Part shown: piece after piece, positions 8,529 through 29,429 of the stretch
Numbering within the stretch: position 1 is the first letter of the stretch
Layout: every line of letters begins with the position of its first letter
Program-made: the position numbers and the translations under genes
Origin: a virus
Strand: one strand, 5' to 3'
Length of the DNA: 32,172 bases
Virus record (IMG/VR): IMGVR_UViG_3300031227_000243
Span: 1 to 32,172 of that record
The notes under the pieces: model-generated
What the model saw: only the letters and a program-made list of their open reading frames with translations
Told to the model about the DNA's origin: nothing
Database searches by the model: none

Positions 8529-8558
8529 ATTATATAACACTTTATTTATCCTTGTCAA
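8529..8558 (-). promoter_or_regulatory. Sigma-70 promoter of cassette L3
   Basis: Perfect TTGACA (8558-8553), 18-nt spacer, perfect TATAAT (8534-8529). The -35 lies in the codons for Leu-Asp-Lys at the end of the preceding glycosyltransferase gene. Predicted transcription start is near 8522. Confidence 0.85.
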
Positions 8559-9642
8559 GAAAGACCTTTTTGAAGAATTGACCGTAGGCATCAAGGTGGT
8601 CTTTAATTTGCCAATCCCTTTCTATTGTTTCAAAGGCGTTCTTGCCCATCTTCTTTCTTAGCTCTTTGTCGTATATAAGCCTCTTAATTTTTTGATACCA
8701 ATCTTGGGCGCTTCTTGCCAAAAGACCATTCTTGCCGTCATCGACCACCTCTTGATATTGGCGAATGTCTTGCCAAACCCCCGCCCTCTTAGCACTTGAC
8801 GCTTCTATAAACTTAATAGAGCTCTTACAACGGTTATAGGTATTCTCTGTAAGAGGCGCTACGAAGATGTCCGTTTCCTTCATTGCTAAAGGGAATTTAT
8901 TTTTAATCCATTTATACACATCGACATTACCGAAGGAGTGGGAGTATCTTGCCCCCCAGCGCATCTTATACTTGGGGATAAATGCCCCGACCGTCTTAAA
9001 GATAACATTGGGGTATTCCTTGAGTATCTTGTCTATCCCTTTGTTAAACTCCTCTGACTGGAGGCTGGCAAAGTGGCTACTACTCCCAAAGTGAACCAGT
9101 TGTATTTGCTGGTCGTCTTTGAAACGAGGGTGGTATTTATAGAGGTCTAAGTCAATGTAGTTGGGAAAGACCTTGATAGACTCGTGCCGCTTGAGTGTGT
9201 TATGGGCAATGGCGTTTTTAAGGTAAGAGTTGGTACAGGTAATATAGTCAACCTCGTTGGCGATAGAGGTTATTACCTTAATCCCCTCGCTCCCCTTCTT
9301 ATAGACTTGATAGGCGGTGTTGTCGGGGAGAATACCCCAAAGGTCATCGTCAAAATCCATTACTATATTCCGCCCATACTTTCTCGCCATCGCTCCCATT
9401 GCCGCAAACCCCCATGCTTGGTTGAGATAGTTAAGATAGATAACGTCATAGTCTTTGGCTATCTTACGCCAGTCAGCATTATTCTTATCAAAGATGTTCC
9501 AGACATCGGTCTTGATTTTTACCTCTCCGTCTGTCCAACCGTTAAGGTGTTCCATTGGCTGAATGATACGGGTGAAATCTACCCCCGATACTCGCTCCTT
9601 AGAAGCGTGGCTTGGGAGGCAAAAGATTTTTATTGTTTTCAT
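8542..9642 (-). CDS. Glycosyltransferase, GT-B fold (GT4-like)
   Basis: 366 residues, the usual length for a single-domain-pair GT-B enzyme. The first half has 'GVDFTRIIQPMEHL' and 'VIYLNYLNQAWG', with 'VMDFDDDLWG' and 'VFPNYIDLDLY'. The second half has 'LVHFGSSSHF', 'PLTENTYNRCKSSIKFIEASS' and 'NGLLARSAQDWYQKIKRLI', the family pattern for the nucleotide-sugar site and C-terminal helix. It should move a sugar from a nucleotide donor to a glycan in the cytoplasm. Last gene of the sugar operon; it overlaps the preceding gene by ATGA (4 nt). Donor and acceptor cannot be told. Confidence 0.75.
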   Translation of the reverse strand: MKTIKIFCLPSHASKERVSGVDFTRIIQPMEHLNGWTDGEVKIKTDVWNIFDKNNADWRKIAKDYDVIYLNYLNQAWGFAAMGAMARKYGRNIVMDFDDDLWGILPDNTAYQVYKKGSEGIKVITSIANEVDYITCTNSYLKNAIAHNTLKRHESIKVFPNYIDLDLYKYHPRFKDDQQIQLVHFGSSSHFASLQSEEFNKGIDKILKEYPNVIFKTVGAFIPKYKMRWGARYSHSFGNVDVYKWIKNKFPLAMKETDIFVAPLTENTYNRCKSSIKFIEASSAKRAGVWQDIRQYQEVVDDGKNGLLARSAQDWYQKIKRLIYDKELRKKMGKNAFETIERDWQIKDHLDAYGQFFKKVFLDKDK

Positions 9643-10421
9643 TTCTGCGTTATTTCAATAAACTTATTTAGCTTTCGGTCGAAGGTCATTATCATATCAA
9701 TATAGTGATCCATAAACTTGTCGGCATCAAGGGGTACATTCTCTTTTAATCCCCAGCTAATTCCGTTCATTCCTGGCTCATATTGGCTAAACTCTTTCTT
9801 GGTCATCTTGCCATACTTGGAATGAGCATAAGGCTTAGGGGGAATAATTACCACTCGACAACCACACAAGCGGGCGCACTCAAAGATGGCTGAAGCAGGG
9901 TCGTAAGAGTAAAGCACCTCACACCCGTTCAAATAGTCGGCTAAGGCTTGCTGGTCAACCGCCATCTCCTTGTGAAGCTCCTCTACCCCCTCAAGCTCCG
10001 GCAGGTGGAGGTCAATCCCCTTGCTAACATACTTACATTTCTTGGTTCTCTTGTTGAAATTGGTTTCGTGGAAGATATTAATGTCAACGGCAGGGAGAAA
10101 CATTATATGGTCATCGTCAACGCCCATAGTGTTATAAATCTTAGAAAAGACAAAGATTTGGTCTGTCTTGGCAAACTTAGTCGGCCCGCCACCGATAAAG
10201 CCTGGCCAACTCAATATCCACCGCACCACCCGCTTGCTGTTAAGGGGGTTGCCTTGACAAAGCTCCGGATAGACGGCGATAAAGTCTTGGTCTTGGATAA
10301 CAGCATTAATAAGCACCTGTTGCCCCTTTTTCTTGAGGGCATCGACTAAGGCGTGCATCACCCTAATCCCACCACTCCAGGGAACAAATTGTGGTGTCCA
10401 GACGCTATAAGGCTTATTCAT
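9639..10421 (-). CDS. Glycosyltransferase-like protein, GT-B type
   Basis: 260 residues, shorter than most GT4 enzymes (about 350). The start 'SVWTPQFVPWSGGIRVMHAL' is the typical N-terminal Gly-rich donor/acceptor loop of GT-B enzymes. 'DQIFVFSKIYNTMGV', 'FLPAVDINIFH' and 'VLYSYDPASAIFECARLCG' fit the interdomain and C-terminal nucleotide-binding regions. It overlaps both neighbours by 4 nt (ATGA), so the three glycosyltransferases are translated together. The short length suggests a compact or partly degenerate second domain. Function is at family level only. Confidence 0.65.
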   Translation of the reverse strand: MNKPYSVWTPQFVPWSGGIRVMHALVDALKKKGQQVLINAVIQDQDFIAVYPELCQGNPLNSKRVVRWILSWPGFIGGGPTKFAKTDQIFVFSKIYNTMGVDDDHIMFLPAVDINIFHETNFNKRTKKCKYVSKGIDLHLPELEGVEELHKEMAVDQQALADYLNGCEVLYSYDPASAIFECARLCGCRVVIIPPKPYAHSKYGKMTKKEFSQYEPGMNGISWGLKENVPLDADKFMDHYIDMIMTFDRKLNKFIEITQK

Positions 10422-11164
10422 ATATCTCCATAAACAGCACTCTTGCCATATCCGCTGACAAAGTTCATATAGGTAACCACATCATCGTTAAACCCCATCT
10501 TCTCGAATTGGAGCTTAGGCATTGCCCCTGGGCCTTTGGCGTGGTGATAGAGCCTCACTTGCTCTCCTCGACACATCACCTTATTACCATCAACAACAAA
10601 CTCCTTCTCTCTTCCCAAAGACTTACAACCATAGTAATCCTTTTTCTTATCAAATATCTTCTTCCTGAAAGCGGTGTTGTTATACCAAATGAGATTGAGG
10701 ATATCATTCTCGGCGCAGACATATTTATAGGCTTCGCGGTTCTCTATCTCCCAAATATCCCAAAACTCCTTCTTTCGTGAGGCGACCATTCCTGCGTTGA
10801 CAAACATCTTCTCGGTAACATTCTTTACCTTCCTGTTCTCGAAGTCATTATAATTCCATGCCGCTCCTACCTCGTAGTCTTGGGCTAACACCGCGTCTAG
10901 CCGCCCTAAGATGACGCTATCAGCGTCAACATTGACCACCAAGTCATACTTATCGGTTAAGAGTTTAGCGAAGGTTGGTTTAGCATTGAGCCAGTTGAGA
11001 AAGCCGAACCGCTTGAACATATAATCAACCACATCTTGCCTAAAGACCACCAAGTCAATATCGGGGTGGAAGCGCTTAAAAGAGTTGATCATTTTAGGCG
11101 TGCCGATAGGCTTGTAATAGTCGTCGCTTACAAAGGTAAAAAACACAACCTTTTCTTTTTTCAT
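10418..11164 (-). CDS. Glycosyltransferase, GT-A fold with DxD motif
   Basis: 248 residues. Begins 'VVFFTFVSDDYYKPIG' and carries 'KYDLVVNVDADSVILGRLD' with the metal-binding DAD at residues 80-82, the hallmark of GT-A (GT8-like) transferases. 'VNAGMVASRKKEFWDIWE' and 'CAENDILNLIWYNN' match the usual acceptor-side region. It should transfer a sugar from a nucleotide sugar with Mn/Mg. ATGA overlaps at both ends tie it to the FkbM methyltransferase before it and the GT-B gene after it. Specificity is unknown. Confidence 0.75.
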   Translation of the reverse strand: MKKEKVVFFTFVSDDYYKPIGTPKMINSFKRFHPDIDLVVFRQDVVDYMFKRFGFLNWLNAKPTFAKLLTDKYDLVVNVDADSVILGRLDAVLAQDYEVGAAWNYNDFENRKVKNVTEKMFVNAGMVASRKKEFWDIWEIENREAYKYVCAENDILNLIWYNNTAFRKKIFDKKKDYYGCKSLGREKEFVVDGNKVMCRGEQVRLYHHAKGPGAMPKLQFEKMGFNDDVVTYMNFVSGYGKSAVYGDI

Positions 11165-11799
11165 CTTGTAAATAAAATTATAACAGCGCTGGACTCGTAT
11201 CGCCTGGCGGTATAGCCCAGCTTAATCATGTGTTCTACTATCCTCTCGAAACCAGGAAAATGAAACTCTACTTCAATCGCCAAAACCTTGTCCGCTACAG
11301 AGGTAAACCCCTCGCTCATAAGGATTGACTCCTCTGCCCCCTCAACATCAAACTTAACAAAATCAATCTTGTCAATCTTGTTCTCCTTCATAAAAGTAGC
11401 AAAGGTTTGGGTCTTAACCATCTCTCCGCCCTCGTTTGTACCCAAGACAAGGCTGTGGCAAGTTCTGTTTTGTGAGTTAAGGTTTAAGACCATCTCTCCA
11501 TTCTGGCTGGCAATCGCCATATTGAAAATATCCACATTGTCCCACTTATTAAACTCCTTATTCTTCTTTAGGGCTTCAAAGTGTTCGGTCGAAGGCTCAA
11601 TGGCGTATATCTTTTTAGCGAACTGTCTCATATAGTGAGTAACGATGCCAATGTTAGCGCCGACATCGACAATAACCATATCTTTCTTTTGGTTAAAGAT
11701 GTCCACATAGACCCCCTCGAGGTATATCTCCTTAAAGATGTAGGGGATAAAGAGGCTGTCAAAAGGAACATCTGGATAAAATAGTGCTTTTAACGCCAT
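11161..11799 (-). CDS. FkbM-family SAM-dependent methyltransferase
   Basis: 212 residues from ATG 11799, chosen because GGGAGG sits 5 nt upstream; a longer in-frame start at 11811 is possible. Motif I 'VIVDVGANIGIVTHY' (residues about 42-56), 'IYAIEPS' and 'VKFDVEGAEESIL' are the characteristic FkbM sequence blocks. FkbM enzymes O-methylate sugars or polyketides using S-adenosylmethionine. In this operon the likely substrate is the sugar or glycan made by the neighbours. The start lies inside the end of the LicD-like gene (10-nt overlap). Confidence 0.85.
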   Translation of the reverse strand: MALKALFYPDVPFDSLFIPYIFKEIYLEGVYVDIFNQKKDMVIVDVGANIGIVTHYMRQFAKKIYAIEPSTEHFEALKKNKEFNKWDNVDIFNMAIASQNGEMVLNLNSQNRTCHSLVLGTNEGGEMVKTQTFATFMKENKIDKIDFVKFDVEGAEESILMSEGFTSVADKVLAIEVEFHFPGFERIVEHMIKLGYTARRYESSAVIILFTR

Positions 11800-12329
11800 A
11801 AATCCTCCCACTTTCTAAGGTTCTTATTATCCCACCAGTTACCCGCAATAGGTGTTTGCCAACTCTCGCCGTAATAATACTCCAGCCATTTTTCAGGATC
11901 ATGCGGGGCCTTGAACTCCCGACCAAGATACTTAATCGTTGACCAAGTTTTCTTGGGGTAATCCTCAGGTTTCCAAACAATACAATCATCGTCAGTAGGG
12001 TTCTGATAACAAACCCCTTTCTTCATCCAAAGAGGATTAAAAGCCACCTTAATTCCAATGGGGCCGACAACATTGGAAAAAGAAAGATACATCTCTGGGT
12101 ACTTCTCTTTAGCACGAAGAGGAGAGAATAAGAGGCCGTCAGACTCCATTGTGCTAATCACCTTATCGGTTAAGTCCTTACCGTGAACACAAATATCGAC
12201 TTCTTTATCATGCTTAATCAAATGTCCCCCCCTGATTATCCCTAACAAAGAGGAGGCAAAGACCATATAATCTACCTTATCCTTTAGGTAGTCATCAGCC
12301 ATTAATAGTAGTTTCTCTGTTCCTGTCAT
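11790..12329 (-). CDS. LicD-like nucleotidyltransferase-fold protein
   Basis: 179 residues from ATG 12329, which overlaps the upstream stop by ATGA. 'VFASSLLGIIRGGHLIKHDKEVDICV' is the LicD/Fukutin signature: G-S-L-L-G, then an acidic D-x-E-x-D pair that binds metal. 'PEMYLSFSNVVGPIGIKVAF' and 'FKAPHDPEKWLEYYYGESW' match the rest of the family. Family members attach phosphocholine or similar phospho-groups to cell-surface glycans, or form sugar-phosphate links. The protein is shorter than typical LicD (about 270), so the C-terminal part may be reduced. Confidence 0.75.
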   Translation of the reverse strand: MTGTEKLLLMADDYLKDKVDYMVFASSLLGIIRGGHLIKHDKEVDICVHGKDLTDKVISTMESDGLLFSPLRAKEKYPEMYLSFSNVVGPIGIKVAFNPLWMKKGVCYQNPTDDDCIVWKPEDYPKKTWSTIKYLGREFKAPHDPEKWLEYYYGESWQTPIAGNWWDNKNLRKWEDLWR

Positions 12330-12523
12330 ACCTTCAATCCATACTTTAATCCGCACTGCCAACACAAGTGAAACTCCCTCTTATACCCCTCAATAACGCA
12401 ATGAATGTGCCAAGCCTTTCTAATCGTCCCCCCGCAACCACCACAGATAAATGACCGATACTGCGGCGTATAGTCTATCGGCCACTTGTTAAGAATTTTA
12501 GCACATTGCTTTTGTGTTATCAT
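12326..12523 (-). CDS. Small zinc-ribbon protein inside the sugar operon
   Basis: 65 residues with two knuckles, CGGCG near residue 27 and CWQCG near residue 54, plus His residues between them: a zinc-ribbon pattern. No enzyme motif is visible. It overlaps the methyltransferase gene before it by 4 nt (ATGA) and the LicD-like gene after it by 4 nt, so it is part of the operon. Role unknown; a binding or regulatory protein is possible. Confidence 0.65.
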   Translation of the reverse strand: MITQKQCAKILNKWPIDYTPQYRSFICGGCGGTIRKAWHIHCVIEGYKREFHLCWQCGLKYGLKV

Positions 12524-13218
12524 TTTTGCCCCCTAAAATAAATCCAGTTTGAATGAATATCGCCTGGGCCTGTCCGCCCAATCTTATGCTCAAAATTATT
12601 AAAACCTATTTTCTCTAAATCCTTCTTTAGGTAATCCGCATCCTCAACTCTCGTATCGCAAGAACTATTTGTTCCAGTAGCATCATAGTAATTCTCATAA
12701 TACCCAACCGCATGGTCTTTTCCCCCGTAACCCATTTGGGCAGTAAACCAACCCTCTGGTTTTAAGACTCGGTAGATTTCCTTCATCAGGTTGTATCTAA
12801 TCTCGTGAACGCAAATATGCTGTAGAGTAATTGTCGAAAAGACAACATCATAAACTCCGCCCTTAACACCATTCAAAGATATCCCGTCAACCAAATAAAG
12901 ATGACAAAGACCCTTAACATTATCCTTGATGTATTTGGCCCCCTTTTCTAATAAACTCTCGGAGATATCCGCCCCATCAATTCTCTTAAATCTATCTTTA
13001 TACAAGACAATCGCCCTACCTGGCCCGCAACCAAAGTCCAAGGCGACCTTATCTTTACTCTCTATCCCTTTTAATAAACACTCATAGTCCTTCCACTGGT
13101 TGTGTTGATCGAAAGACCCCACAATCAAATCACGGTTGTCATAAGACCACTCTTCGCCTGTGGAAGAATAGTAATCCCTCTGCATATTTGTGTATTTATT
13201 GTTTGATGATATGGTCAA
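12520..13218 (-). CDS. Class I SAM-dependent methyltransferase
   Basis: 232 residues. Motif I 'VALDFGCGPGRAI' (residues 58-70), 'IDGADISESLLEKG', 'YDVVFSTITLQHI' and 'IYRVLKPEGWF' are the methyltransferase fold motifs in order. The start is a TTG at 13218: a strong AGGAGG lies 4 nt upstream and overlaps the end of the nucleotidyltransferase gene, while the next ATG (13185) is too far from it. Probably methylates a sugar nucleotide or glycan. The rest of the operon suggests sugar rather than DNA as substrate, but this is inference. Confidence 0.8.
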   Translation of the reverse strand: MTISSNNKYTNMQRDYYSSTGEEWSYDNRDLIVGSFDQHNQWKDYECLLKGIESKDKVALDFGCGPGRAIVLYKDRFKRIDGADISESLLEKGAKYIKDNVKGLCHLYLVDGISLNGVKGGVYDVVFSTITLQHICVHEIRYNLMKEIYRVLKPEGWFTAQMGYGGKDHAVGYYENYYDATGTNSSCDTRVEDADYLKKDLEKIGFNNFEHKIGRTGPGDIHSNWIYFRGQK

Positions 13219-13924
13219 GATACCTCCTTAATGTTTCAGGCGTGCCTATCGTGTAGGCATCCTCTTTATTAACCTCATAGATTTTAACTTTCAGTCCATT
13301 CTTGATAACACGATTATAGACCGGACAGTTGTAAAACTCTCCATTCGGTTCTCTGTCATTACTGCCTACCTTCTCTGCCGCCGCATTGACAAAATCCCGC
13401 CCGTGCCTGAACCAATACAGCCCTATGGTAGCATGGTTAGAAATGACTATCTTCTCCGCACACTCAGTCACATACCCATCCTTGACCTTAGCAAAACTGT
13501 GGTGCGGCTCTCTACTCTTATAAGTTAGGATAGCTCCGTCCGCATCGCTTTTTCTTGCCGCCTCGTAAAACTCATTTATATCAAACTCTATCACTTGGTC
13601 ACAATTAGAAATCAACAGCTCATCTTCATTGTTAATCAGGCTGGCGGCGGTTAGCATCGTGCACAAAGCCCCTTCCGTCTGTCTCTCGAGCTGGATTATC
13701 TTTGATGTCGGCTCCCACGACTTCAATGCTCTGCTTATCTCCCAGCCGTGATCCATTTCCTTATTAGTCATAAAGATAAAGCGGTAGTCGCTCTTAGGCT
13801 TGATACAGTCAATAACTGCCTTGACCATTGGCTTACCGTCAACATCAATCAAGGGCTTAGGCTCTTTATAGGTAAACTGAAACCTTGAGCCCAACCCTGC
13901 CATAGGAATTGCTATATTTATCAT
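13196..13924 (-). CDS. Sugar-phosphate nucleotidyltransferase
   Basis: 242 residues. 'INIAIPMAGLGSRF' (2-15) with 'EPKPLIDVDGKPM' is the nucleotide-binding signature of the family that joins NTP and sugar-1-phosphate. 'LLISNCDQVIEFD' carries the metal-binding aspartate and 'DAYTIGTPETLRRYLD' closes the active site. Product: an NDP-sugar for the glycosyltransferases downstream. Which base and sugar it uses cannot be read. ATGA overlap with the transketolase C-terminal subunit suggests that they act on the same intermediate. Confidence 0.85.
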   Translation of the reverse strand: MINIAIPMAGLGSRFQFTYKEPKPLIDVDGKPMVKAVIDCIKPKSDYRFIFMTNKEMDHGWEISRALKSWEPTSKIIQLERQTEGALCTMLTAASLINNEDELLISNCDQVIEFDINEFYEAARKSDADGAILTYKSREPHHSFAKVKDGYVTECAEKIVISNHATIGLYWFRHGRDFVNAAAEKVGSNDREPNGEFYNCPVYNRVIKNGLKVKIYEVNKEDAYTIGTPETLRRYLDHIIKQ

Positions 13925-14418
13925 CGGTGTAAGTGTAAAAATGCTGGCTTCTTGTTTTCAATCATCTCTTTGACCATTGCTGGCACTAACTCCTTAGTAT
14001 CAGGATAAAACTGCTGAATGTTAGGGTAACGACTGACGATGGTGTTAAATGGCTCATCCGACCAATGAGTGAAGCCATCATCCTTGTAATCCTTACCAAC
14101 TCCCGCTCCGACCAGCTTAACAGGGATATTCTCGTGATGTAGATAGTTCTTTATCCACTCTAACGGCCGATAGAGCAAAAACGGGGTAATGCTGTAACAA
14201 AATGGTATCAAGCCTTTTAGAGCCATTCCAACGCCAATGCCGACCATTGCTTGCTCTGCCGCGCCTATGTTAATAAAGCGGTCGGGGTAGTCCTGCTTGA
14301 TAGCGTCAAACATACCAAAACCCAAATCGGCAGTGATTACCCAAATGTCGGGGTTCTTCTTCATTTGCTGGTGTAATTCGTAGGCAAAATACCCACGAAA
14401 GCTATTGTGTCTTTTCAT
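13921..14418 (-). CDS. Transketolase-like C-terminal subunit (pyrimidine-binding domain)
   Basis: 165 residues. Contains 'WVITADLGFG', 'FINIGAAEQAMVGIGVGMAL' with the catalytic glutamate (E55) that activates thiamine diphosphate, 'DGFTHWSDEPFNTI' and 'FYPDTKELVPAMVKEM'. This is the PYR domain only; the third transketolase domain is missing. Paired with the PP-domain gene just before it (17-nt overlap), it should form a split two-subunit enzyme that transfers a two-carbon ketol group. Such split pairs occur in surface-sugar clusters. The start has a GGGGGG site. Confidence 0.8.
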   Translation of the reverse strand: MKRHNSFRGYFAYELHQQMKKNPDIWVITADLGFGMFDAIKQDYPDRFINIGAAEQAMVGIGVGMALKGLIPFCYSITPFLLYRPLEWIKNYLHHENIPVKLVGAGVGKDYKDDGFTHWSDEPFNTIVSRYPNIQQFYPDTKELVPAMVKEMIENKKPAFLHLHR

Positions 14419-15034
14419 TTGTCCCCCCTAATTCTTTATATTGCTTCTCGTCTAATTTTAAGTAATGACCGCTTAATCCCTGTAAAAAATCAGGCAGGTT
14501 AAAAAGGTTGGTTCTAAAGCAAAGGGTGGGGTAAAAGGCGTTCAGTCTGGTATCGAGGTCGTCAACGTCAACCCTGCCATAAGCAGAATAGCCGTTACAA
14601 ACAACCGCGATGTTCAAGTTCTCCAATCTTTGTTTAGAAGCTACCTGCAATGCTTCCCAAACCGCTCCCTCGGCACACTCGCCGTCGCTCATTAAAACAT
14701 ACACCTTGCTTTTTCTATCGGCCAATGCCATCCCCACCGCCACCGTTATCCCCTGTCCCAAAGAGCCAGTCGAGCAATAGATACCATCTCCCAGATCGCG
14801 GCTAGGGTGCGTGCCGTGCTTCAGGTATAGTTTCTCGGCATCCTTACCTTCATATTTTTCTAACACTACATAGAGGGCTAATGCGGCGTGTCCATTACTC
14901 AAAATAAAGGGGTCTTTTTTCTTCTTGACTTGATAAATCTTATCAATCACATTAACGCTGGTTAAACACGAGCCAATATGGGTTAGACCATGCCTGTAGC
15001 TGATATCAATGATGCGCCGTTCTAAAGTATTCAT
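14402..15034 (-). CDS. Transketolase-like N-terminal subunit (diphosphate-binding domain)
   Basis: 210 residues. 'HIGSCLTSVNVIDKIY', 'FILSNGHAALALYVVL', 'CSTGSLGQGITVAVGMAL' and 'VLMSDGECAEGAVWEAL' followed by 'VVCNGYSAYG' match the thiamine-diphosphate motif (GDG-like SDG at 117-119, Asn near 147). It binds the diphosphate end of the cofactor and needs the downstream C-terminal subunit. It overlaps the epimerase gene by ATGA. It may make or modify an unusual sugar by two-carbon transfer; the substrate is unknown. Confidence 0.85.
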   Translation of the reverse strand: MNTLERRIIDISYRHGLTHIGSCLTSVNVIDKIYQVKKKKDPFILSNGHAALALYVVLEKYEGKDAEKLYLKHGTHPSRDLGDGIYCSTGSLGQGITVAVGMALADRKSKVYVLMSDGECAEGAVWEALQVASKQRLENLNIAVVCNGYSAYGRVDVDDLDTRLNAFYPTLCFRTNLFNLPDFLQGLSGHYLKLDEKQYKELGGTNEKTQ

Positions 15035-15807
15035 TTTTTATATGCCTTCACTTGTTCTAAAATGCTCTCCTCTAAAGAAACACGAGGCAACCACCCATAA
15101 CTCCTTGCTCGGAAGTTAGATGATACCCAATCCTCATTATCGTAAAGCCTCAACTGCCCTACAGTATTAACATTGGCTTTCTTGTCTGTTATCGCCTCAA
15201 CTATCTCTAACACCTGCTGATTGGTATGCTTCCTGCCTGAGCCTAACTCAAATATCCCCCTGGCGTGATGGGAAGAGAGGTTGACTATCCCTGCCGCCAC
15301 ATCGTCAACATCTATAAAGTCGTGGACGGGGTCAGGAACAAAATTAACCTGTTCTCCTTCAAGACAACTCCTAATAAGGGTAGGGATAAGATGCTCTTTC
15401 TGCTCGCCAACGCCAGTAATAGAGTAGGGGCGGATTATACAAAAAGGCTTGTGGTACTTCTCGGCAAAGGATAGCAGTATCTCTTCTGACGCTTTCTTGG
15501 TGCGGGAATACATTGTCTGCTTAGGGAGCTTGACTGAAGAGGTGCTCATATAGACAAAGGAGTTGAAGGGTTCGCCGTCCACCTGGAGAACCATACTGAT
15601 TAAATCCGATACATTAGCCTGTATTATCTTTTTGTCGTCCTTATGAAAATACATATTGCCGTAGGTAGAGAGAAAGTAGAAGTTATCAAAAGGCTCTAAC
15701 TTGGTGGTCTTAATCTTAGCGTGGGGTATAGCGGTAACTTCCCGTCCTTTGAGGGCTTGGAGAAGATGCGTGCCTAAAAATCCGTGACTGCCAGTAATAT
15801 AATCCAT
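15031..15807 (-). CDS. NAD-dependent sugar epimerase/dehydratase (SDR)
   Basis: 258 residues. 'DYITGSHGFLGTHLL' holds the Rossmann G-x-x-G-x-x-G motif (6-12), 'FVYMSTSSV' the catalytic Ser/Thr and 'MYSRTKKASEE' the Y100-x3-K104 pair. 'FIDVDDVAAGIV' and 'FELGSGRKHTNQQVLEIV' are typical of extended SDR sugar enzymes. At 258 residues it is shorter than UDP-glucose epimerases (about 330). First gene of the sugar operon, 23 nt from the predicted transcript start, with only a weak AGG ribosome site. Confidence 0.8.
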   Translation of the reverse strand: MDYITGSHGFLGTHLLQALKGREVTAIPHAKIKTTKLEPFDNFYFLSTYGNMYFHKDDKKIIQANVSDLISMVLQVDGEPFNSFVYMSTSSVKLPKQTMYSRTKKASEEILLSFAEKYHKPFCIIRPYSITGVGEQKEHLIPTLIRSCLEGEQVNFVPDPVHDFIDVDDVAAGIVNLSSHHARGIFELGSGRKHTNQQVLEIVEAITDKKANVNTVGQLRLYDNEDWVSSNFRARSYGWLPRVSLEESILEQVKAYKK

Positions 15808-23437: not shown

Positions 23438-23658
23438 TTTTTATTCACCCCCTTCAACTTCTCAAAACAGCTCTCGCACACAACATATTTTGGCTCGTTT
23501 AAGTAATGCTTCTTTGAGCAACGCTGGCAGTACCAAGCATTCCTCTCCCGCCGCCTCTTCTCCATTGTTTTAGTCATCGACTTCTTCCGCTTTCGTTCCG
23601 CATCGACGGTTCTCTTTTTACCTGTTGATGGACCTTTTTTCCATGTGTATTTAGTCAT
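23434..23658 (-). CDS. Basic zinc-binding protein
   Basis: 74 residues. Lys/Arg-rich N-terminal 40 residues, then 'WYCQRCSKKH' and 'YVVCESCFEKL', two CxxC knuckles 17 residues apart: a zinc-ribbon or zinc finger. Begins with MTKYTWKKG; the ATGACTAA at its start is also the end of the upstream gene (...KQND stop), an 8-nt overlap. Likely nucleic-acid binding. Confidence 0.7.
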   Translation of the reverse strand: MTKYTWKKGPSTGKKRTVDAERKRKKSMTKTMEKRRRERNAWYCQRCSKKHYLNEPKYVVCESCFEKLKGVNKK

Positions 23659-23670
23659 TTTGTTTTAAGT
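23651..23670 (-). repeat. Junction cassette copy, 8-nt overlap form
   Basis: ACTTAAAACAAAATGACTAA: end of one gene (YLKQND stop) and start of the next. Same as the copies at 26124-26160 and 26421-26452, located 2.5 kb away from the main group. Confidence 0.75.
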
Positions 23671-23902
23671 ATTTAATCGCCTCTTTAACAATACCTGCCT
23701 TAGTTTCTAAGTCAAACTTATCCCACCTCGTAAGGTTGATAGACGTATAATATATACTTAAACCATCTGTTATCTCTAACCAGTATTGTCTTTTATCAAA
23801 TTCTTGTTGTACAAACCGAATGATGGGGAGAGGATGTCCGAACAATATTACCAGTTCGCCAACATCAGCATAACGCCATTTCTTTTTCTTTATTTTAATC
23901 AT
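23651..23902 (-). CDS. Small protein of unknown function ending in the KQND tail
   Basis: 83 residues from ATG 23902, picked because GGAAGGGGGAAGAG lies upstream and it overlaps the microprotein stop by ATGA. Rich in aromatic residues ('KKWRYADVGELVILFGHPLPIIRFVQQ', 'YWLEITDGLSIYYTSI'), suggesting a compact alpha/beta or SH3-like fold. C-terminal 'IKYLKQND' is shared with two genes at 26.1-26.7 kb because of the common junction sequence. Confidence 0.65.
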   Translation of the reverse strand: MIKIKKKKWRYADVGELVILFGHPLPIIRFVQQEFDKRQYWLEITDGLSIYYTSINLTRWDKFDLETKAGIVKEAIKYLKQND

Positions 23903-24388: not shown

Positions 24389-24729
24389 ATCAGCTTCTCC
24401 CTCTTCAACAACATCAATATCTCCTTAAAATCACTGAAAGGCATTATCACCAATGGCTCTTCTCTATCAGGCAACGCTAACACCACATCCCAGTTAATCT
24501 TTACACCCTCTTCCGCCACCTGATTTAACCAACCCCTAACCTTCTTAATGTTGGCTATCTTCCCATGCTTAACCTCAAAATTGAACGGATATGTCCCCTC
24601 TAAGTCGCACCCATTAGCTTTTCGGGCGGTCTGGGCGTGCCAATTACGGTGGCAGTTGGGGAAGATGTCGGATAAGAGGTGGACGGCTTTGAGTTCGCCC
24701 CTTTTTCCCTTAGACCTTGAGTTAGTCAT
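24385..24729 (-). CDS. PD-(D/E)XK nuclease, Holliday-junction resolvase-like
   Basis: 114 residues. 'SKGKRGELKAVHLL' (E12), 'GCDLEG' (D42), 'FNFEVKHGK' (E52-x-K54) are the ordered active-site residues of Hjc/RecB-type nucleases. Length agrees with small Hjc-like resolvases. Family role: cutting branched DNA in recombination or before packaging. Only the motif level is seen, so another PD-(D/E)XK nuclease is possible. The start shares an ATGACTAA overlap with the upstream gene. Confidence 0.8.
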   Translation of the reverse strand: MTNSRSKGKRGELKAVHLLSDIFPNCHRNWHAQTARKANGCDLEGTYPFNFEVKHGKIANIKKVRGWLNQVAEEGVKINWDVVLALPDREEPLVIMPFSDFKEILMLLKREKLI

Positions 24730-24877
24730 TTTTTACCTTTTTATACTTTTTAGGGAAATCTTCCCAGTCCCAAATAATTCCTGCCACCTTATCTACATCA
24801 ATCCCATGTTTTTTAGCTAAAGCGTGAAACAGGCGATGAATATGCCCTGCGTTTCCTTTTTGCGTTACTTTAGTCAT
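24722..24877 (-). CDS. 51-residue protein of unknown function
   Basis: MTKVTQKGNAGHIHRLFHAL onward, with 'AKKHGIDVDKVAGIIWDWEDF' and a Lys-rich end. Coupled at both ends: ATGA overlap with the previous gene (GGAGGTAAAAG ribosome site) and ATGACTAA overlap with the nuclease gene. His-rich start, otherwise helical. Function unknown. Confidence 0.65.
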   Translation of the reverse strand: MTKVTQKGNAGHIHRLFHALAKKHGIDVDKVAGIIWDWEDFPKKYKKVKND

Positions 24878-25125
24878 CTTTTACCTCCTTCAACTCTTAA
24901 ATCCCCATACCTTCTAATCGCCTTCATAACATCATCAATCACTTCGTCATCTTCAATTAGCTCTAGGTTGGCACGGATAAAGTCCCAGATGCCTTCTATT
25001 TTCGCTTCTATTGGTGGCTGAAACTCTATCGCCCCTGCCGTTTTAACCATCAACATTCGTTGTGCAGGGGTAAGCCTATCATATAACCTTTTACCGATAG
25101 TGGCTTTTAGTTTTGAGTTAGTCAT
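24874..25125 (-). CDS. Small helical protein of unknown function
   Basis: 83 residues. 'KLKATIGKRLYDRLTPAQRMLMVKTAG' and 'FIRANLELIEDDEVIDDVMKAIRRYG' are two long amphipathic helices. The end 'VEGGKR' encodes the ribosome site for the next gene. First gene of the array running to the terminases after the 25.19-25.54 kb interruption; its start (MTNSKL) resembles that of the nuclease gene (MTNSRS). Its own ribosome site is weak. Confidence 0.6.
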   Translation of the reverse strand: MTNSKLKATIGKRLYDRLTPAQRMLMVKTAGAIEFQPPIEAKIEGIWDFIRANLELIEDDEVIDDVMKAIRRYGDLRVEGGKR

Positions 25126-25192
25126 TTTTTATTGCTACTAATGCTACTAATTGTAAATAGCCTTTGCTTATAAGAAATCCCTCACATCAAGG

Positions 25193-25431: not shown

Positions 25432-25553
25432 AAATCAAGGGCGGGTAATACTGGCTTATTACTTGCCAGTGGATTGAACCTCACGGTTTCTCCCCACCGC
25501 CCCTGATGTCAAAGAACGACTGAGTGTAATGGCTAGAACGCTCAGTCTTTTTT
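25432..25553 (+). ncRNA. Structured RNA candidate with terminator, only plus-strand unit
   Basis: A GGGCGG/CCGCCC closing stem (25439-25444 with 25497-25502) encloses ACTGGC/GCCAGT (25450-25470) and a GGA-GAACC/GGTTT-TCC arm (25471-25493): a three-way junction. A 9-bp hairpin (25518-25547) followed by six T residues forms an intrinsic terminator in plus orientation. TATAAT ends 7 nt before the proposed start. The core could also fold as minus-strand RNA, where its outer stem is longer (11 bp) and one loop is a GTGA tetraloop, so strand is not proven. No known RNA family is recognised. Confidence 0.5.
25518..25553 (+). terminator. Rho-independent terminator, plus orientation
   Basis: GACTGAGTG pairs with CGCTCAGTC around a 12-nt loop, then TTTTTT. 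On the minus strand no T-run follows, so it ends plus-strand transcription. The A-run and the first arm of the stem encode the last residues of the minus-strand gene at 25542. Confidence 0.75.
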
Positions 25554-25838
25554 AATCTCCTTAATCTTAGCGTTTAGTTTCTTGACGGCTTGGTTATACT
25601 CTTCTCTCTCTCTAACCGTTTCTGGAGACATTGATGGTGTGTGGATGACCATTTCTTCCATCTCCAACCCCTTCAAAATCTCCTCTATTTGGCGGCGGTA
25701 AAAATCCTTAATATGCCCCATCGGCCCAAGAGCAGTTCTATAATCCGAACTCATGTGAATAATTGTATTAAAGAATCGTCTAAACTTATAATCAAACCTT
25801 TTTTCTATCCCCTTAATCGTTGGTGGTTTTTTAGTCAT
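25542..25838 (-). CDS. Small helical protein, last gene of the junction-cassette array
   Basis: 98 residues. 'RFDYKFRRFFNTIIHM', 'FYRRQIEEILKGLEMEEM' and 'REREEYNQAVKKLNAKIKEIKKD' are long charged helices. Begins MTKKPPT after a cassette with a full GGAGAG ribosome site and a 4-nt ATGA overlap. Its end overlaps the plus-strand terminator. Function unknown. Confidence 0.65.
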   Translation of the reverse strand: MTKKPPTIKGIEKRFDYKFRRFFNTIIHMSSDYRTALGPMGHIKDFYRRQIEEILKGLEMEEMVIHTPSMSPETVREREEYNQAVKKLNAKIKEIKKD

Positions 25839-25864
25839 TTTGTTTTCTCTCCTTTCTTGAGGGA
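25833..25864 (-). repeat. Junction cassette copy, ribosome-site form
   Basis: CTCAAGAAAGGAGAG followed by AAAACAAAATGACT. Upstream gene reads it as ...SLKKGEKTK-stop; the downstream gene starts at the ATG (ATGA overlap). Confidence 0.9.
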
Positions 25865-26146
25865 GGATAAAAATCTATCCCTAATACCATTTCTAATATG
25901 TTTAAAAGCCTTCCACTCTTCCAGGGTAGTATCTCTGTAAGATAGTTCCACCTCGTCAATAAATTTAACTATCCTCCCCACCACTTCATCCTCTTTGGCT
26001 TGGATAGCTCGGATTACAAAATACCACATATTTTCATATACAATATCCCACATTTTATATTTAACAATACCTCTTGTGTTGCCATATCGCATAAAACCAA
26101 ATTGTTTCTTAAACTCCACTTTCAACTCTTTCTTTGTTTCAGTCAT
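25835..26146 (-). CDS. Small helical protein of the junction-cassette array
   Basis: 103 residues. 'FKKQFGFMRYGNTRGIVKYKMW' at the start, then 'VIRAIQAKEDEVVGRIVKFIDEVE', a segment also found in the gene at 27202 ('ALQAKEEEVVGRIETEM'). Ends SLKKGEKTK. MTETKKEL start. Helical, charged, possibly DNA- or protein-binding; unknown. Confidence 0.65.
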   Translation of the reverse strand: MTETKKELKVEFKKQFGFMRYGNTRGIVKYKMWDIVYENMWYFVIRAIQAKEDEVVGRIVKFIDEVELSYRDTTLEEWKAFKHIRNGIRDRFLSSLKKGEKTK

Positions 26147-26160
26147 TTTGTTTTAGGTAA
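26124..26160 (-). repeat. Junction cassette copy, 8-nt overlap form
   Basis: TTACCTAAAACAAAATGACT plus GAAACAAAGAAAGAG. Upstream gene reads YLKQND-stop in a different frame from the GEKTK form. Confidence 0.9.
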
Positions 26161-26438
26161 TTATCAATAACTCGGTCTAAGTCCTGCAAGCAACCATCAG
26201 ACCAAAGCTCAACGGTAATTCCTTTCCTTACCGCCTCCCCCATCTCCTCCTGTTGCTTTTTAAGAAGTTGAGAGATAAATCGTTTTAAGTTTTTAATCAA
26301 TAGCATTTTCAACTTGCTATGGTCTTCTCCTCCAACCCCTTTAACATAAATCTCATCACAAATTAACCTAATCTCCCCACCGATACTATTTTGCTTATCT
26401 AAAAGGTCTTCTCGCCAGTCTTTCTTTACTTTAGTCAT
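26139..26438 (-). CDS. Small protein of the junction-cassette array
   Basis: 99 residues. 'LLIKNLKRFISQLLKKQQEEMGEAVRKG' is a long helix whose 'KKQQEEMGE' matches 'LKQQRKEMGKE' in the next gene upstream (26431). Ends 'DNYLKQND'. Start MTKVKKDW. No motif of known function. Confidence 0.65.
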   Translation of the reverse strand: MTKVKKDWREDLLDKQNSIGGEIRLICDEIYVKGVGGEDHSKLKMLLIKNLKRFISQLLKKQQEEMGEAVRKGITVELWSDGCLQDLDRVIDNYLKQND

Positions 26439-26452
26439 TTTGTTTTAGGTAA
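26421..26452 (-). repeat. Junction cassette copy, 8-nt overlap form
   Basis: TTACCTAAAACAAAATGACT then AAAGTAAAGAAAGA. Same upstream half as the copy at 26124-26160. Confidence 0.9.
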
Positions 26453-26718
26453 TCTTCTATTGCTTCCTTCATTTTTCTTTCAGTAATCATCCAGCCATCA
26501 TCAAGGATACTTTGGAGCTCGCAATAAAGCTCTTTCCCCATCTCCTTCCGTTGCTGTTTGAGGGCTTGGTCAAGTTCCTCTTGGTCGTACATCCTAATCT
26601 TGGAAAAAGTCACTCTTTTCTGGTGTCGCTTACAGTTATACGCCGTGTTACCACCACGGTTTCTTTGAACCCTTTTGCAATATCCACACTCTCTCAACTC
26701 TTTCTTTGTTTTAGTCAT
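26431..26718 (-). CDS. Small protein with Cys/His pairs, junction-cassette array
   Basis: 95 residues. 'ECGYCKRVQRNRGGNTAYNCKRHQKRV' contains CxxC, then a Cys and a His, a likely zinc finger near the N-terminus. A helix 'LDQALKQQRKEMGKELYCEL' follows, and the end is 'EDYLKQND'. It shares its helix and tail with the gene at 26139, so they look like mosaic relatives. Possibly binds nucleic acid. Confidence 0.65.
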   Translation of the reverse strand: MTKTKKELRECGYCKRVQRNRGGNTAYNCKRHQKRVTFSKIRMYDQEELDQALKQQRKEMGKELYCELQSILDDGWMITERKMKEAIEDYLKQND

Positions 26719-26744
26719 TTTGTTTTCTCTCCTTTCTTGAGGGA
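26701..26744 (-). repeat. Junction cassette copy, ribosome-site form
   Basis: CCCTCAAGAAAGGAGAG, AAAACAAAATGACT and AAAACAAAGAAAG: the most complete copy (about 44 nt), almost identical upstream to the copy at 25833-25864. Confidence 0.9.
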
Positions 26745-26900
26745 ACTTGCATCGGGGCTTGCCAGCCTATCCCTAACATCAAAAAGTACTTCACTTAAAT
26801 TATCAAAAGCACCGGCTAGTTCTGTAATCAAATCAAGCAAAACCATTTCAAGCACTTCATTAGATGGCTCCCCTCCTAGCTCTTTCTTTGTTTTAGTCAT
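26715..26900 (-). CDS. Short acidic/helical protein of the array
   Basis: 61 residues. 'LEMVLLDLITELAGAFDNLSEVLFDVRDRL' is one long amphipathic helix pair, suited to dimerisation. MTKTKKEL start and SLKKGEKTK end are both derived from junction cassettes, leaving only about 45 unique residues. Function unknown. Confidence 0.6.
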   Translation of the reverse strand: MTKTKKELGGEPSNEVLEMVLLDLITELAGAFDNLSEVLFDVRDRLASPDASSLKKGEKTK

Positions 26901-26914
26901 TTTGTTTTCTCTCC
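26882..26914 (-). repeat. Junction cassette copy, ribosome-site form
   Basis: AGGAGAG, AAAACAAAATGACT, AAAACAAAGAAAG. Upstream gene ends ...ERGEKTK. Confidence 0.9.
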
Positions 26915-27205
26915 TCGTTCTAACTCCTCTAATGACATTTTTTTAAGTGCAGCCAACCACTCTCTAACGCTCTGTTGTGTCGCTTCCCTAGTTAATGCAA
27001 AACCACTTCCAGCAACCATGCCATCATAATCAAATAAACCCTTTATATGCTCAACCATTCCGCATTTCCTCAACCCATCCATTACTTTCTTAATTCTTTT
27101 TCTTGGCTCACCTGTGTTTTTCTCAAAATAACGATAATAATAAGCATCCTCATCACTATCACCAAATAATTCAAGAATTTTTATTTTTAGTTCTAAATCT
27201 GTCAT
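26897..27205 (-). CDS. Small winged-helix-like protein
   Basis: 102 residues. 'IKILELFGDSDEDAYYYRYFEKNTGEPRKRIKKVMDGLRKCGMVEHIKGLFDYDGMVAGSG' runs helix, helix, recognition-helix-like segment, then beta hairpin, similar in order to winged-helix DNA-binding domains ('R-IKKVMDGLRK-GMVE'). Starts MTDLELK, the only array member without MTK. May be a regulator. Inference from pattern only. Confidence 0.6.
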   Translation of the reverse strand: MTDLELKIKILELFGDSDEDAYYYRYFEKNTGEPRKRIKKVMDGLRKCGMVEHIKGLFDYDGMVAGSGFALTREATQQSVREWLAALKKMSLEELERGEKTK

Positions 27206-27231
27206 TTTGTTTTCTCTCCTTGCTTGAGGGA
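27200..27231 (-). repeat. Junction cassette copy, ribosome-site form, downstream half lost
   Basis: CCCTCAAGCAAGGAGAG and AAAACAAAATGAC are kept, but after ATGAC the sequence is unrelated (AGATTTAG), so the conserved unit can end at the start codon. Confidence 0.85.
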
Positions 27232-27654
27232 ATTTAAATATATAAGAACATCATCAAGCGTGTCATCAACTACCTTATGGGCGAATCTCTCCTTTGCCGT
27301 TTTCGGTGGCAACCCAACAATATATTTAGGCCACACGCACCGACCGCCACCCCCTCTCCACTCTTTCATTTCAGTTTCTATCCTCCCCACCACTTCCTCC
27401 TCTTTGGCCTGAAGAGCTTTTTCTATAAGCGGCCAGTATCTCTCAACCTGTTCTCTATCACTATCTTTTTCTTTTTCGGTTAAGTCTTTATAGTCTGTAG
27501 CGATTTGTTTATCCCATCTCTCTAAAACTTTCTCTAATTCAGGTGATGGGCAATTTTCTCTTAATACTTTATGACACCATTTTTGCCAATCAGCCCATCT
27601 TTGATGTTCTATATTAGCCAGTTTTTCTTTTAACTCTTTCTTTATTTTAGTCAT
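27202..27654 (-). CDS. Largest array protein, Trp-rich
   Basis: 150 residues. 'NIEHQRWADWQKWCHKVLRE' (several Trp), 'KVLERWDKQIATDYKDLTEKEKDSDREQVERYWPLIEKALQAKEEEVVGRIETEM' and 'VGLPPKTAKERFAHKVVDDTLDDVLIYL'. The 'W-x-W-x-x-W' start resembles a phage family with a conserved N-terminal HQRW-DW-K motif. The 'QAKEEEVVGRI' block is shared with the gene at 25835. Ends SLKQGEKTK. Function not known. Confidence 0.65.
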   Translation of the reverse strand: MTKIKKELKEKLANIEHQRWADWQKWCHKVLRENCPSPELEKVLERWDKQIATDYKDLTEKEKDSDREQVERYWPLIEKALQAKEEEVVGRIETEMKEWRGGGGRCVWPKYIVGLPPKTAKERFAHKVVDDTLDDVLIYLNSLKQGEKTK

Positions 27655-27666
27655 TTTGTTTTAGGA
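27637..27666 (-). repeat. Junction cassette copy read in a third way
   Basis: TTCCTAAAACAAAATGACT, same bases as the 8-nt form, but the upstream gene reads it as ...FPKTK-stop (4-nt overlap). Shows that the DNA, not the peptide, is what is kept. Confidence 0.85.
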
Positions 27667-27776
27667 AATAAAAAGAATATAACTCTCCAAAACCCTTGCC
27701 AAGCCAACTCTGCACAAACCACTCCCAATACCGCCCCAACTACTATTGCTAAAAAGCTCAATATTACTTTACTCAC
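27651..27776 (-). CDS. 41-residue membrane microprotein
   Basis: Starts with GTG 27776 in a GTGA overlap with the preceding gene. 'KVILSFLAIVVGAVLGVVCAEL' is a membrane helix; a second hydrophobic stretch (WRVIFFLF) precedes the end PKTK. Third of three small membrane proteins after the RlpA-like gene; possibly holin-like or a lysis regulator. Confidence 0.6.
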   Translation of the reverse strand: MSKVILSFLAIVVGAVLGVVCAELAWQGFWRVIFFLFPKTK

Positions 27777-27955
27777 ACCAGCCACCCCCACAACAGCCAC
27801 CACACCAAGAGGACGAGTAGCAACGCTAATGGTATTTCTATGTCTTGTTTTTTCATTTTATTTGAGGCTCTCTTTAAAGCCCGATTATATTCCCTCACTT
27901 GAGGCGTATTCTTTAGTTTTACGTGTCGGCGTTTCATTTTATTTTCAGTTTTCAT
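27773..27955 (-). CDS. Small protein with C-terminal membrane helix
   Basis: 60 residues from ATG 27955 (ATGA overlap); ATG 27937 would give 54. Basic N-terminal 40 residues ('MKRRHVKLKNTPQVREYNRALKRASNKMKK') and a C-terminal helix rich in Leu and Trp (LALLLVLLVWWLLWGWLV). A tail-anchored protein with a positive inner part, a shape seen in some phage lysis proteins such as short amurin-like peptides. Function inferred only. Confidence 0.6.
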   Translation of the reverse strand: MKTENKMKRRHVKLKNTPQVREYNRALKRASNKMKKQDIEIPLALLLVLLVWWLLWGWLV

Positions 27956-28101
27956 TCGGAAAGAATATCTAACCCAGCAATCGCCATCAAGGCTATCACG
28001 GAGCTAACAATTACTGCCAACAAAATGCCTGCCTCAATCATAATGGCGACAATCAATATAGCTAATGGTAACATTAATAACAGTCCAGCTATTTTTTTCA
28101 T
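27952..28101 (-). CDS. 49-residue two-helix membrane protein, holin candidate
   Basis: 'MKKIAGLLLMLPLAILIVAI' and 'EAGILLAVIVSSVIALMAIA' are two membrane segments separated by a Glu, with a short acidic end (GLDILSE). Size and topology suit a class II holin or pinholin. AGAGGTGA ribosome site precedes the ATG; ATGA overlap joins it to the next gene. Confidence 0.6.
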   Translation of the reverse strand: MKKIAGLLLMLPLAILIVAIMIEAGILLAVIVSSVIALMAIAGLDILSE

Positions 28102-28150
28102 TTTATTCACCTCTTTTTATTGTCAAGTTAATTGTAAGATTAATTGTCAA
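28102..28150 (-). promoter_or_regulatory. Possible control region with repeated TTGACAAT
   Basis: TTGACAAT occurs twice 24 nt apart (one at the stop of the RlpA-like gene) with CTTACAATTAAC between. Neither copy has a good -10 at normal distance, so this may be an operator or a weak promoter (TTGACA-15-TAAAAT) in front of the membrane trio. Confidence 0.3.
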
Positions 28151-28655
28151 CTACCTCCCACCTCACTCGAATAACCCCCCTTGAACTCGGAGCTAACCTC
28201 TTAAAAACAGTTTCAGAGAAGTCAAAGTCCCTTCCTGCTATGAATGGCCCTCTATCGTTACAAACAGCCTCAACCACATTCCCCTGCCCATCTCCGTCTG
28301 GGTCGTATAAGAACCTAACCTTAGTGCCAAATTTCATTGTTTTGTGGGCGAATGTCAACGCATCACAGGAGTAAATCTCACCCGACGCTGTGTGATTGCC
28401 CTCAAACCCCTCGCAATAGTAGGAAGCATAAGAAGTATTAGCGAAAGGCTTCCACGCCTTTTTAGCGGGTATGCCTGTCGGAATTAAGGTGATGCTCTCC
28501 TCACTCACAGGGCTTATTATAACGGCTTCTTGCCCGAAGCCAAAGTAAATGAACAAACTGCCTGCGAAGAGGAGAGCCAGAGTTAGTGCCACCCAAATAA
28601 TAGTGGACTTCCTGATGCCGAGATAGTGATAGTATTTAGATTTTCTGTATCTCAT
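28140..28655 (-). CDS. RlpA-like double-psi beta-barrel protein, membrane-anchored
   Basis: 171 residues. Residues 18-41 are a membrane/signal-anchor helix after a basic N-terminus. 75-170 match the RlpA barrel: 'SYASYYCEGFEGNHTASGE', 'LTFAHKTMKFGTKVRF', 'VCNDRGPFIAGRDFDFS', 'FKRLAP'. NDRGPF (133-138) contains the Asp used by RlpA glycan hydrolases. Three Cys could form disulfides outside. Likely acts on peptidoglycan in the periplasm or wall, in lysis or in wall remodelling. It stands upstream of three membrane microproteins. The start overlaps the previous gene by ATGA. Confidence 0.85.
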   Translation of the reverse strand: MRYRKSKYYHYLGIRKSTIIWVALTLALLFAGSLFIYFGFGQEAVIISPVSEESITLIPTGIPAKKAWKPFANTSYASYYCEGFEGNHTASGEIYSCDALTFAHKTMKFGTKVRFLYDPDGDGQGNVVEAVCNDRGPFIAGRDFDFSETVFKRLAPSSRGVIRVRWEVVDN

Positions 28656-28939
28656 GTTTGTTTTTTGACTAATAATTTATCTCTAAGTTTACGTTGGGAT
28701 TGTCTAAACTGATTTCTCCCCTTACTTGAAGCTATTAAGCCTCCCATTTTTTCGGCACATTCTGCTGTTACTTGAATTGCTGGCAGTTTCTCGTCCTTCC
28801 CTATCAACTCCTCGCTAAAGTCGTGGAGGAGGTCTAAAATATCATTGAAATAAAATGATGAATGCTTGCCAACCGCATCTTCTCTAGTAATCAAACTACA
28901 CCTCGTCCTGTATATTCTCTTTAAGTATTTAGATATCAT
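28652..28939 (-). CDS. Small basic protein of unknown function
   Basis: 95 residues. 'YFNDILDLLHDFSEELIGKDEKL' and 'KGRNQFRQSQRKLRDKLLVKKQT' are helices, the last highly basic. Coupled by 4-nt overlaps to both neighbours. No known domain is seen. Confidence 0.6.
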   Translation of the reverse strand: MISKYLKRIYRTRCSLITREDAVGKHSSFYFNDILDLLHDFSEELIGKDEKLPAIQVTAECAEKMGGLIASSKGRNQFRQSQRKLRDKLLVKKQT

Positions 28940-29406
28940 TTTTCTTTTCTTTCAAACAAATCCTCATATATCTGCGCCTTAGTCTCATGGATAGCATTGC
29001 TTACAACCCTGTCACACTCATCTGTCATCCCCTTGCCGATAAAAAATACTGGCTTGCTTTTCTTTACTATACCCTTCATTTCCTTTTCACGGGCTTGGAG
29101 GGCTTCTTTTTTCCCTAATTCATAAGCATTAACCATACCACGCAACATAAATAGCTTTAACGTTTTGACACCAGCCAGTCTTGCCAAATCGAAATCAACA
29201 ATTCCTGGCTTGCCTTGGGTAGATAGTTTCTCCAAAAGACTCTTTGCTTTTTCAACCAACTCTTTTTCCTCTGGTGATACTTCCTCTCTCAACTCTTTTT
29301 GTGTTTTCATAGTTTTGTTTTCTTTAGGCTTCAAATCTGGTCGCCTAATCCCTTCATATATATCTTTCTTGCTCCAATCTATTCCCACTTTCTTTGTTTT
29401 GGTCAT
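28936..29406 (-). CDS. Apparent fusion of two cassette-type genes
   Basis: 156 residues. Part 1 (1-32) starts MTKTKKVG and ends 'DLKPKENKT'. At residue 33 a second cassette-like start appears, 'MKTQKELREEVSPEEKELVEK' (ATG 29310), preceded by AAGAAAACAAAACT, a damaged copy of the junction sequence in which the stop is gone. Part 2 has helices 'KAKSLLEKLS' and 'ALQAREKEMKGIVKK', similar in style to other array genes, and 'FFIGKGMTDECDRVVSNAI'. Alternative: the true start is ATG 29310. Function unknown. Confidence 0.6.
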   Translation of the reverse strand: MTKTKKVGIDWSKKDIYEGIRRPDLKPKENKTMKTQKELREEVSPEEKELVEKAKSLLEKLSTQGKPGIVDFDLARLAGVKTLKLFMLRGMVNAYELGKKEALQAREKEMKGIVKKSKPVFFIGKGMTDECDRVVSNAIHETKAQIYEDLFERKEK

Positions 29407-29420
29407 TTTGTTTTCTCCTC
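29389..29420 (-). repeat. First junction cassette of the array
   Basis: GAGGAG, AAAACAAAATGACC, AAAACAAAGAAAG. Here no gene end overlaps it; the upstream gene stops 86 nt earlier. Confidence 0.85.
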
Positions 29421-29429
29421 TTATCCTAC

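Follow-up and report, generated by a model that had tools for sequence, protein, structure and literature searches.

A short repeat forms the start of eight small genes lying in one 3.6 kb row of a phage genome, and of one more gene 2 kb further on, and it usually doubles as the end of the preceding gene. We think, with moderate confidence, that it is a phage-specific initiation element, comparable in its working to the start-associated sequences (SAS) of other phages, that also couples the stop of one gene to the start of the next and that spread by duplication or recombination within the genome. The sequence analysed, hereafter the window, is one genome, an IMG/VR virus record of 32,172 bases. 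The presence of terminase, portal-like and packaging genes identifies a tailed phage. All relevant genes are on the minus strand, and no tRNA genes were found. The structural arm includes glycosyltransferase, epimerase and nucleotidyltransferase-like genes (8542-15807), which suggests sugar modification or surface glycan synthesis. Small genes are numerous in the non-structural arms of phages, and their acquisition and expression are poorly understood.

The exact 13-mer AAAACAAAATGAC occurs nine times on the minus strand and never on the plus strand, when approximately 0.005 copies per arm strand are expected under a second-order Markov model. Its ATG is the start of a gene in all nine copies, and all nine are plausible genes, named here by these positions (29406, 27654, 27205, 26900, 26718, 26438, 26146, 25838 and 23658). 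A search for AAAACAAAATGACT with up to two mismatches gave 10 matches, against 0.56 expected from shuffles. The core is found at 9 of the 34 starts of the non-structural arm and at none of the 24 starts of the structural arm (Fisher p = 0.007). When aligned, the nine junctions agree in a block of 13 consecutive columns, outside which the sequence splits into classes, the core being often extended to ATGACTAAAACAAAGAAAGAG. The initial annotation had described a sequence recurring at gene borders, and this is borne out, since every exact core lies at a start. Its positions were also right, but the site at 27205 holds only the left part (ATGACAGAT and following) and 29406 has ATGACC. The left sides are of two types: type A (ending in CTCAAGAAAGGAGAG) has a Shine-Dalgarno sequence, and type B (ending in TACCT or similar) lacks it. 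The copies, and the genes most discussed below, are:

29385..29423, minus strand: copy 1, type A left side (AAGAGGAG, shorter), ATG at 29406, no overlapping upstream gene
27634..27672, minus strand: copy 2, type B left side (TTTCCT, no Shine-Dalgarno), ATG at 27654, 4-nt overlap with ORF 27803
27195..27232, minus strand: copy 3, type A left side, ATG at 27205, left half only, 4-nt overlap
26880..26920, minus strand: copy 4, type A left side, ATG at 26900, 4-nt overlap
26694..26745, minus strand: copy 5, type A left side, ATG at 26718, 4-nt overlap, 36 nt identical to copy 8
26415..26455, minus strand: copy 6, type B left side (ATTACCT), ATG at 26438, 8-nt overlap (LKQND-stop)
26119..26165, minus strand: copy 7, type B left side, ATG at 26146, 8-nt overlap (LKQND-stop)
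25829..25864, minus strand: copy 8, type A left side, ATG at 25838, 4-nt overlap
23650..23676, minus strand: copy 9, type B left side (TACTT), ATG at 23658, 8-nt overlap (LKQND-stop)
25542..26900, minus strand: run of five small cassette genes (26900, 26718, 26438, 26146, 25838), mostly unrelated outside the cassette-coded ends
27202..27654, minus strand: cassette gene 27654, with a conserved LA-IEHQRWADW domain at about residues 10-73 and a homologue in another phage contig, L151

Upstream genes enter the cassette in two frames. At five sites (27654, 27205, 26900, 26718, 25838) they end in KTK-stop, with an ATGA overlap of 4 nt, and at three (26438, 26146, 23658) in LKQND-stop, with an overlap of 8 nt; these are the overlaps of stop and start codons associated with termination-reinitiation. 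Only at 29406 does the upstream gene stop short, leaving a gap of 99 nt, and intergenic DNA is absent at the other eight sites. Three upstream peptides had been proposed, but GEKTK-stop and PKTK-stop share one frame, LKQND-stop being the second, and ORF 27803, the source of PKTK-stop, is a doubtful GTG ORF. The logic of the junction lies in ATGACTAA, which is free of stops in its own frame but gives TGA and TAA, respectively, in the two alternative ones. The earlier proposal of conservation at the DNA level stands: one core is used in two upstream frames, with no differences in nine copies, and the gene bodies are mostly unrelated. That the cassette supplies a stop, a ribosome site and a start is true of the stop and the start, but a Shine-Dalgarno is present at only five of the nine sites.

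Three further elements were absent from the initial annotation. Two genes contain cassette-like sequence in frame 0, and a second start repeat, TAAAAAATGACTAACTCAA, has two copies (at 25131 and 24735) with the same ATGACTAA stop/start logic:

29259..29321, minus strand: decayed copy inside gene 29406, frame 0, KENKT-MKTQKELREE
23560..23595, minus strand: cassette-like internal start (at 23577) in gene 23658, ATGACTAAAACAA, frame 0
24717..24735, minus strand: second start repeat, copy 1, gene 24729, 8-nt overlap
25113..25131, minus strand: second start repeat, copy 2, gene 25125

The decayed copy looks like a fusion across a cassette. The in-frame internal starts of 29406 and 23658 suggest joins in frame 0, which would have yielded fusion genes.

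The right sides of the cassettes vary as well. ATGACTAAAACAAAGAAAGAG and its near variants are found at six sites, and different right sides are found at 27205, 25838 and 23658. One right side follows left sides of either type, and type A precedes several, so the two flanks have been reassorted around the core. Nothing else in this genome points as strongly to past recombination at gene borders. Long identical stretches are also shared between sites: junctions 26718 and 25838 have 36 identical nt, and genes 26900 and 26146, with unrelated bodies, share 30 nt without a difference at their ends.

Cassette starts are predicted to be more accessible than the other starts (mean unpaired probability of 0.74 versus 0.54, p = 2e-4) and are more A-rich at equal GC (p = 1e-4). 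These features and the overlaps jointly suggest a role in initiating and coupling translation. The core AAAACAAAATGAC would serve initiation as a weakly structured stretch rich in A. Type A copies have it downstream of the Shine-Dalgarno GGAG, which lies approximately 8-9 nt upstream of the ATG. In type B, which has none, the start would probably be reached by termination-reinitiation from the upstream gene, across the 8-nt overlap or, at 27654, the 4-nt one. In both alternative frames, ATGACTAA would halt the incoming ribosome at the start codon, and we infer that the upstream gene is in this way ended and coupled to the next one. In the third frame the two genes would fuse, of which 29406 and 23658 may hold the relics. 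Copies would spread within the phage by duplication and by recombination among direct repeats (of up to 36 identical nt), and translational selection would afterwards keep the core. The conservation of the core could partly reflect recent copying rather than selection, because a block of 41 nt outside the junctions is 90% identical between 26146 and 27654.

The cassette genes themselves show little kinship. Once the cassette-coded ends were trimmed, 26146 and 27654 were clearly related (Z 8.7), over a 3' module, and 26438 and 29406 weakly so, which leaves one clear and one weak pair among 45 and not the homology of a tandem array of paralogues. Gene bodies being mostly unrelated, common descent of whole genes is not the explanation, and the identical ends of 26900 and 26146 on unlike bodies, with so few related pairs, indicate that the cassette is more widely shared than the genes. 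No solid family emerged for the cassette genes from Pfam or PHROGs. No relatives of gene 27205 were found, and it shows only a weak hint of a domain, different from that of 27654.

The only shared cassette gene that we found elsewhere is the homologue of 27654 in L151 (IMGVR_UViG_3300020171_000065), which is 82% identical over 73 residues. It has on both sides a different, unrelated repeat, AACCCCAAAAATATGAAGGAAG, which is found four to five times at starts in that contig. L151 thus shows the same arrangement with its own repeat (AATTATTAACCCCAAAAATATGAAGGAAG at four to five gene starts, 9535-10470), the 20-nt core of which matched no other IMG/VR contig. Among homologues of 27654, the domain at about residues 10-73 is conserved and both ends vary; the L151 protein ends where the cassette of L151 begins. 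The AlphaFold model of 27654 is confident in the domain and poor in the cassette-coded C-terminus, and the N-terminal end extends a helix. Since the flanking repeats are unrelated, homologous recombination through a shared cassette did not move the gene between these two lineages. That one gene has, in each phage, the junction proper to that phage speaks for its having acquired the junction locally and against an exchange by way of a common cassette; judged from these sequences, the cassettes would be phage-specific and not a shared recombination site. Neighbouring proteins of L151 share an SQKQEI motif (9535-10470), and a GroEL-like chaperonin gene was noticed by eye in its translation (11231-12778).

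We searched for the cassette in other genomes. An exact scan of IMG/VR with 23 nt gave no match, and one with 20 nt gave single-copy matches only. The 17-nt AAAACAAAATGACTAAA was found in at least 119 stretches, one match each, and its ATG starts an ORF of at least 40 aa in 108 of 119 sites among the matches listed, as expected of a generic start context. The core plus ATGACTAAA is such a context in other, AT-rich phages. In none of the three scans was the cassette repeated in another contig among the matches listed, of which L134 agreed best in extended sequence (14 of the 20 nt that follow), with only a weak protein link to the window. The search in related genomes that the initial annotation had suggested returned nothing: the 25 loci with a related terminase (56-74%) have neither the cassette nor the small genes. 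L015, the closest over the structural genes, has small genes of its own with ATGA overlaps and one ATGACTAAA start. The terminase was found in none of the genome contigs searched, INPHARED phages gave no DNA match and little by protein, and none of the collections searched yielded a close relative that shares the cassette. A survey of shared starts in 156 contigs is a lead only, its control being flawed because most contigs were retrieved through the 17-mer. This inflates sharing across contigs up to 17 nt and leaves only the 20-nt threshold informative, at which we counted 7 pairs within contigs versus 2.2 across, all 7 in this phage.

Other contigs showed repeats of different sorts. L103, L114, L136 and L137 have shared start stretches of their own. 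In L044 (620-2960), a long repeat, TCTGTGGGTAAATGACCATAGTAGTATCACCAACCAA, precedes genes at four places and may be a different kind of element. Three consecutive genes of L059 (reverse complement, 7538-8034) have AAGACAAAATGA junctions resembling the type A frame, two upstream genes there ending in KTK-stop with an ATGA overlap. Adjacent genes of L016 (1129-1330) share CCAATCTCTAAAAAG right after the start codon (MTTPISKKK and MTPISKKK).

Other readings of the repeat must be weighed against an initiation and coupling element. The cassettes could be kept because recombination between copies, within or between phages, swaps intact genes, as the initial annotation had proposed. Direct repeats of 21-36 identical nt do separate gene-sized units, so that unequal exchange would delete or duplicate whole genes and leave the junction intact. 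The reassorted modules and the truncation of the L151 homologue at the L151 cassette speak in the same direction. We nevertheless find this rather unlikely: exchange also took place inside genes (the internal block of 26146 and 27654), the cassette is repeated in no other contig among the matches listed, no recombinase was recognised among the part of the proteins that was scanned, and the two phages with a common cassette gene have unrelated cassettes and thus no shared-cassette transfer. Of the recombination proposed, reassortment within the genome is supported, and the L151 junctions give no sign of a swap between phages. Plain tandem duplication, with the genes as paralogues and the cassettes as their conserved ends, would account for the 3' module of 26146 and 27654 and for the resemblance of 26438 to 26718 and 29406. 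It is improbable as a general account, because most pairs are no more alike than shuffles without the cassette-coded ends, 27654 has its own conserved domain (with the hint of another in 27205) and the core is identical despite two reading frames.

A site for DNA binding or transcription control (promoter, operator or stoperator) that happens to be at starts would explain the fixed orientation of the repeat, and extended cluster K repeats contain putative promoters (PMC11373665). However, promoter-like sites in the arm number 29, versus 22.7 in shuffles (sd 4.9), and are not on the cassettes as a class, there are no inverted repeats of note, and the A-rich core is fixed relative to the ATG in a repeat that often extends to codons 2-7. 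We regard such a role as very improbable. An artefact of chance or of codon use at A-rich gene starts is scarcely credible, even if, among the matches listed, AT-rich phages commonly have the motif as the context of a start: shared stretches reach 36 nt, and the counts (9 found versus 0.005 expected) refute it.

If the repeat is indeed an initiation and coupling element, one may speculate further that phages keep private, frame-tolerant junction cassettes that are copied onto incoming small genes, converting them to their own junction. A gene could then be inserted in two of three frames and still be translated, and this phage (9 copies) and L151 (4-5) would be two independent cases. We offer this tentatively, as a possibility. 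If true, genes would be plugged in behind a local start signal and not exchanged through a common site, a route that is testable. The repeat would also help to recognise such arms by their sequence and could be used as a compact part in synthetic operons.

Among known systems, the PeSL cassettes of T4-type phages are reportedly repeated between genes, and are said to have been proposed for modular shuffling by Arbiol in 2010 and Comeau in 2014. PeSLs are promoter-terminator elements located between genes. In contrast, our cassettes have no recognisable stem-loop and no intergenic DNA at eight of nine sites, and promoter- or terminator-like sites, which are about as frequent as in shuffles, do not coincide with the cassettes as a class.

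Cluster K and Microbacterium EF SAS seem the closest in role and layout. The cluster K SAS is a short asymmetric repeat in 11-19 copies, nearly always in one orientation, restricted to the non-structural arm and in the position of a ribosome-binding site before unrelated genes (PMC3203893). It lies 3-7 nt upstream of the ATG and contains a Shine-Dalgarno (PMC3203893); its function is itself still unresolved (PMC11373665). Our repeat shares the multiple copies, the single orientation, the start codons and the non-structural arm (9/34 versus 0/24 starts). It differs in that the invariant core spans the ATG, that four of nine copies have no Shine-Dalgarno and thus do not fit a ribosome-binding position with one, and that it often reaches codons 2-7 and the tail of the upstream gene. 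The overlap with coding ends, which had been taken to set it apart from cluster K, does so only partially, because some marked cluster K cases also have the upstream stop codon inside the repeat (PMC3203893). The cluster K consensus GGGATAGGAGCCC (13 bp, up to 2 mismatches) is absent from the window, with matches at three mismatches only (4 versus 7.2 expected), and the extended 17-bp inverted repeats found at about half of cluster K sites have no local counterpart at the cassettes, only weak distant pairs.

Microbacterium phages of clusters EF, EC, EG and EI have start-linked or intergenic repeats that are unrelated between groups (PMC7302621), and are thus private to the group, as in this phage and L151. 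Those of EC and EG lie 14-30 bp upstream of the start, and those of EC and EI are in intergenic gaps (PMC7302621). The EF consensus GGGAAAGGACCCC is absent from this phage. Given the absence of consensus matches and a repeat that spans the start codon and both coding ends, the cassette would work like a SAS without belonging to the SAS family. In bacteria, termination-reinitiation is an established process, and ATGA overlaps couple the translation of neighbouring genes (PMC6728339). That coupling belongs to overlaps in general, whereas here a longer fixed sequence is repeated around the overlap. The role of the cassette would be similar to that of repeats known from a few actinobacterial phages, with a stop-plus-start layout that is unusual.
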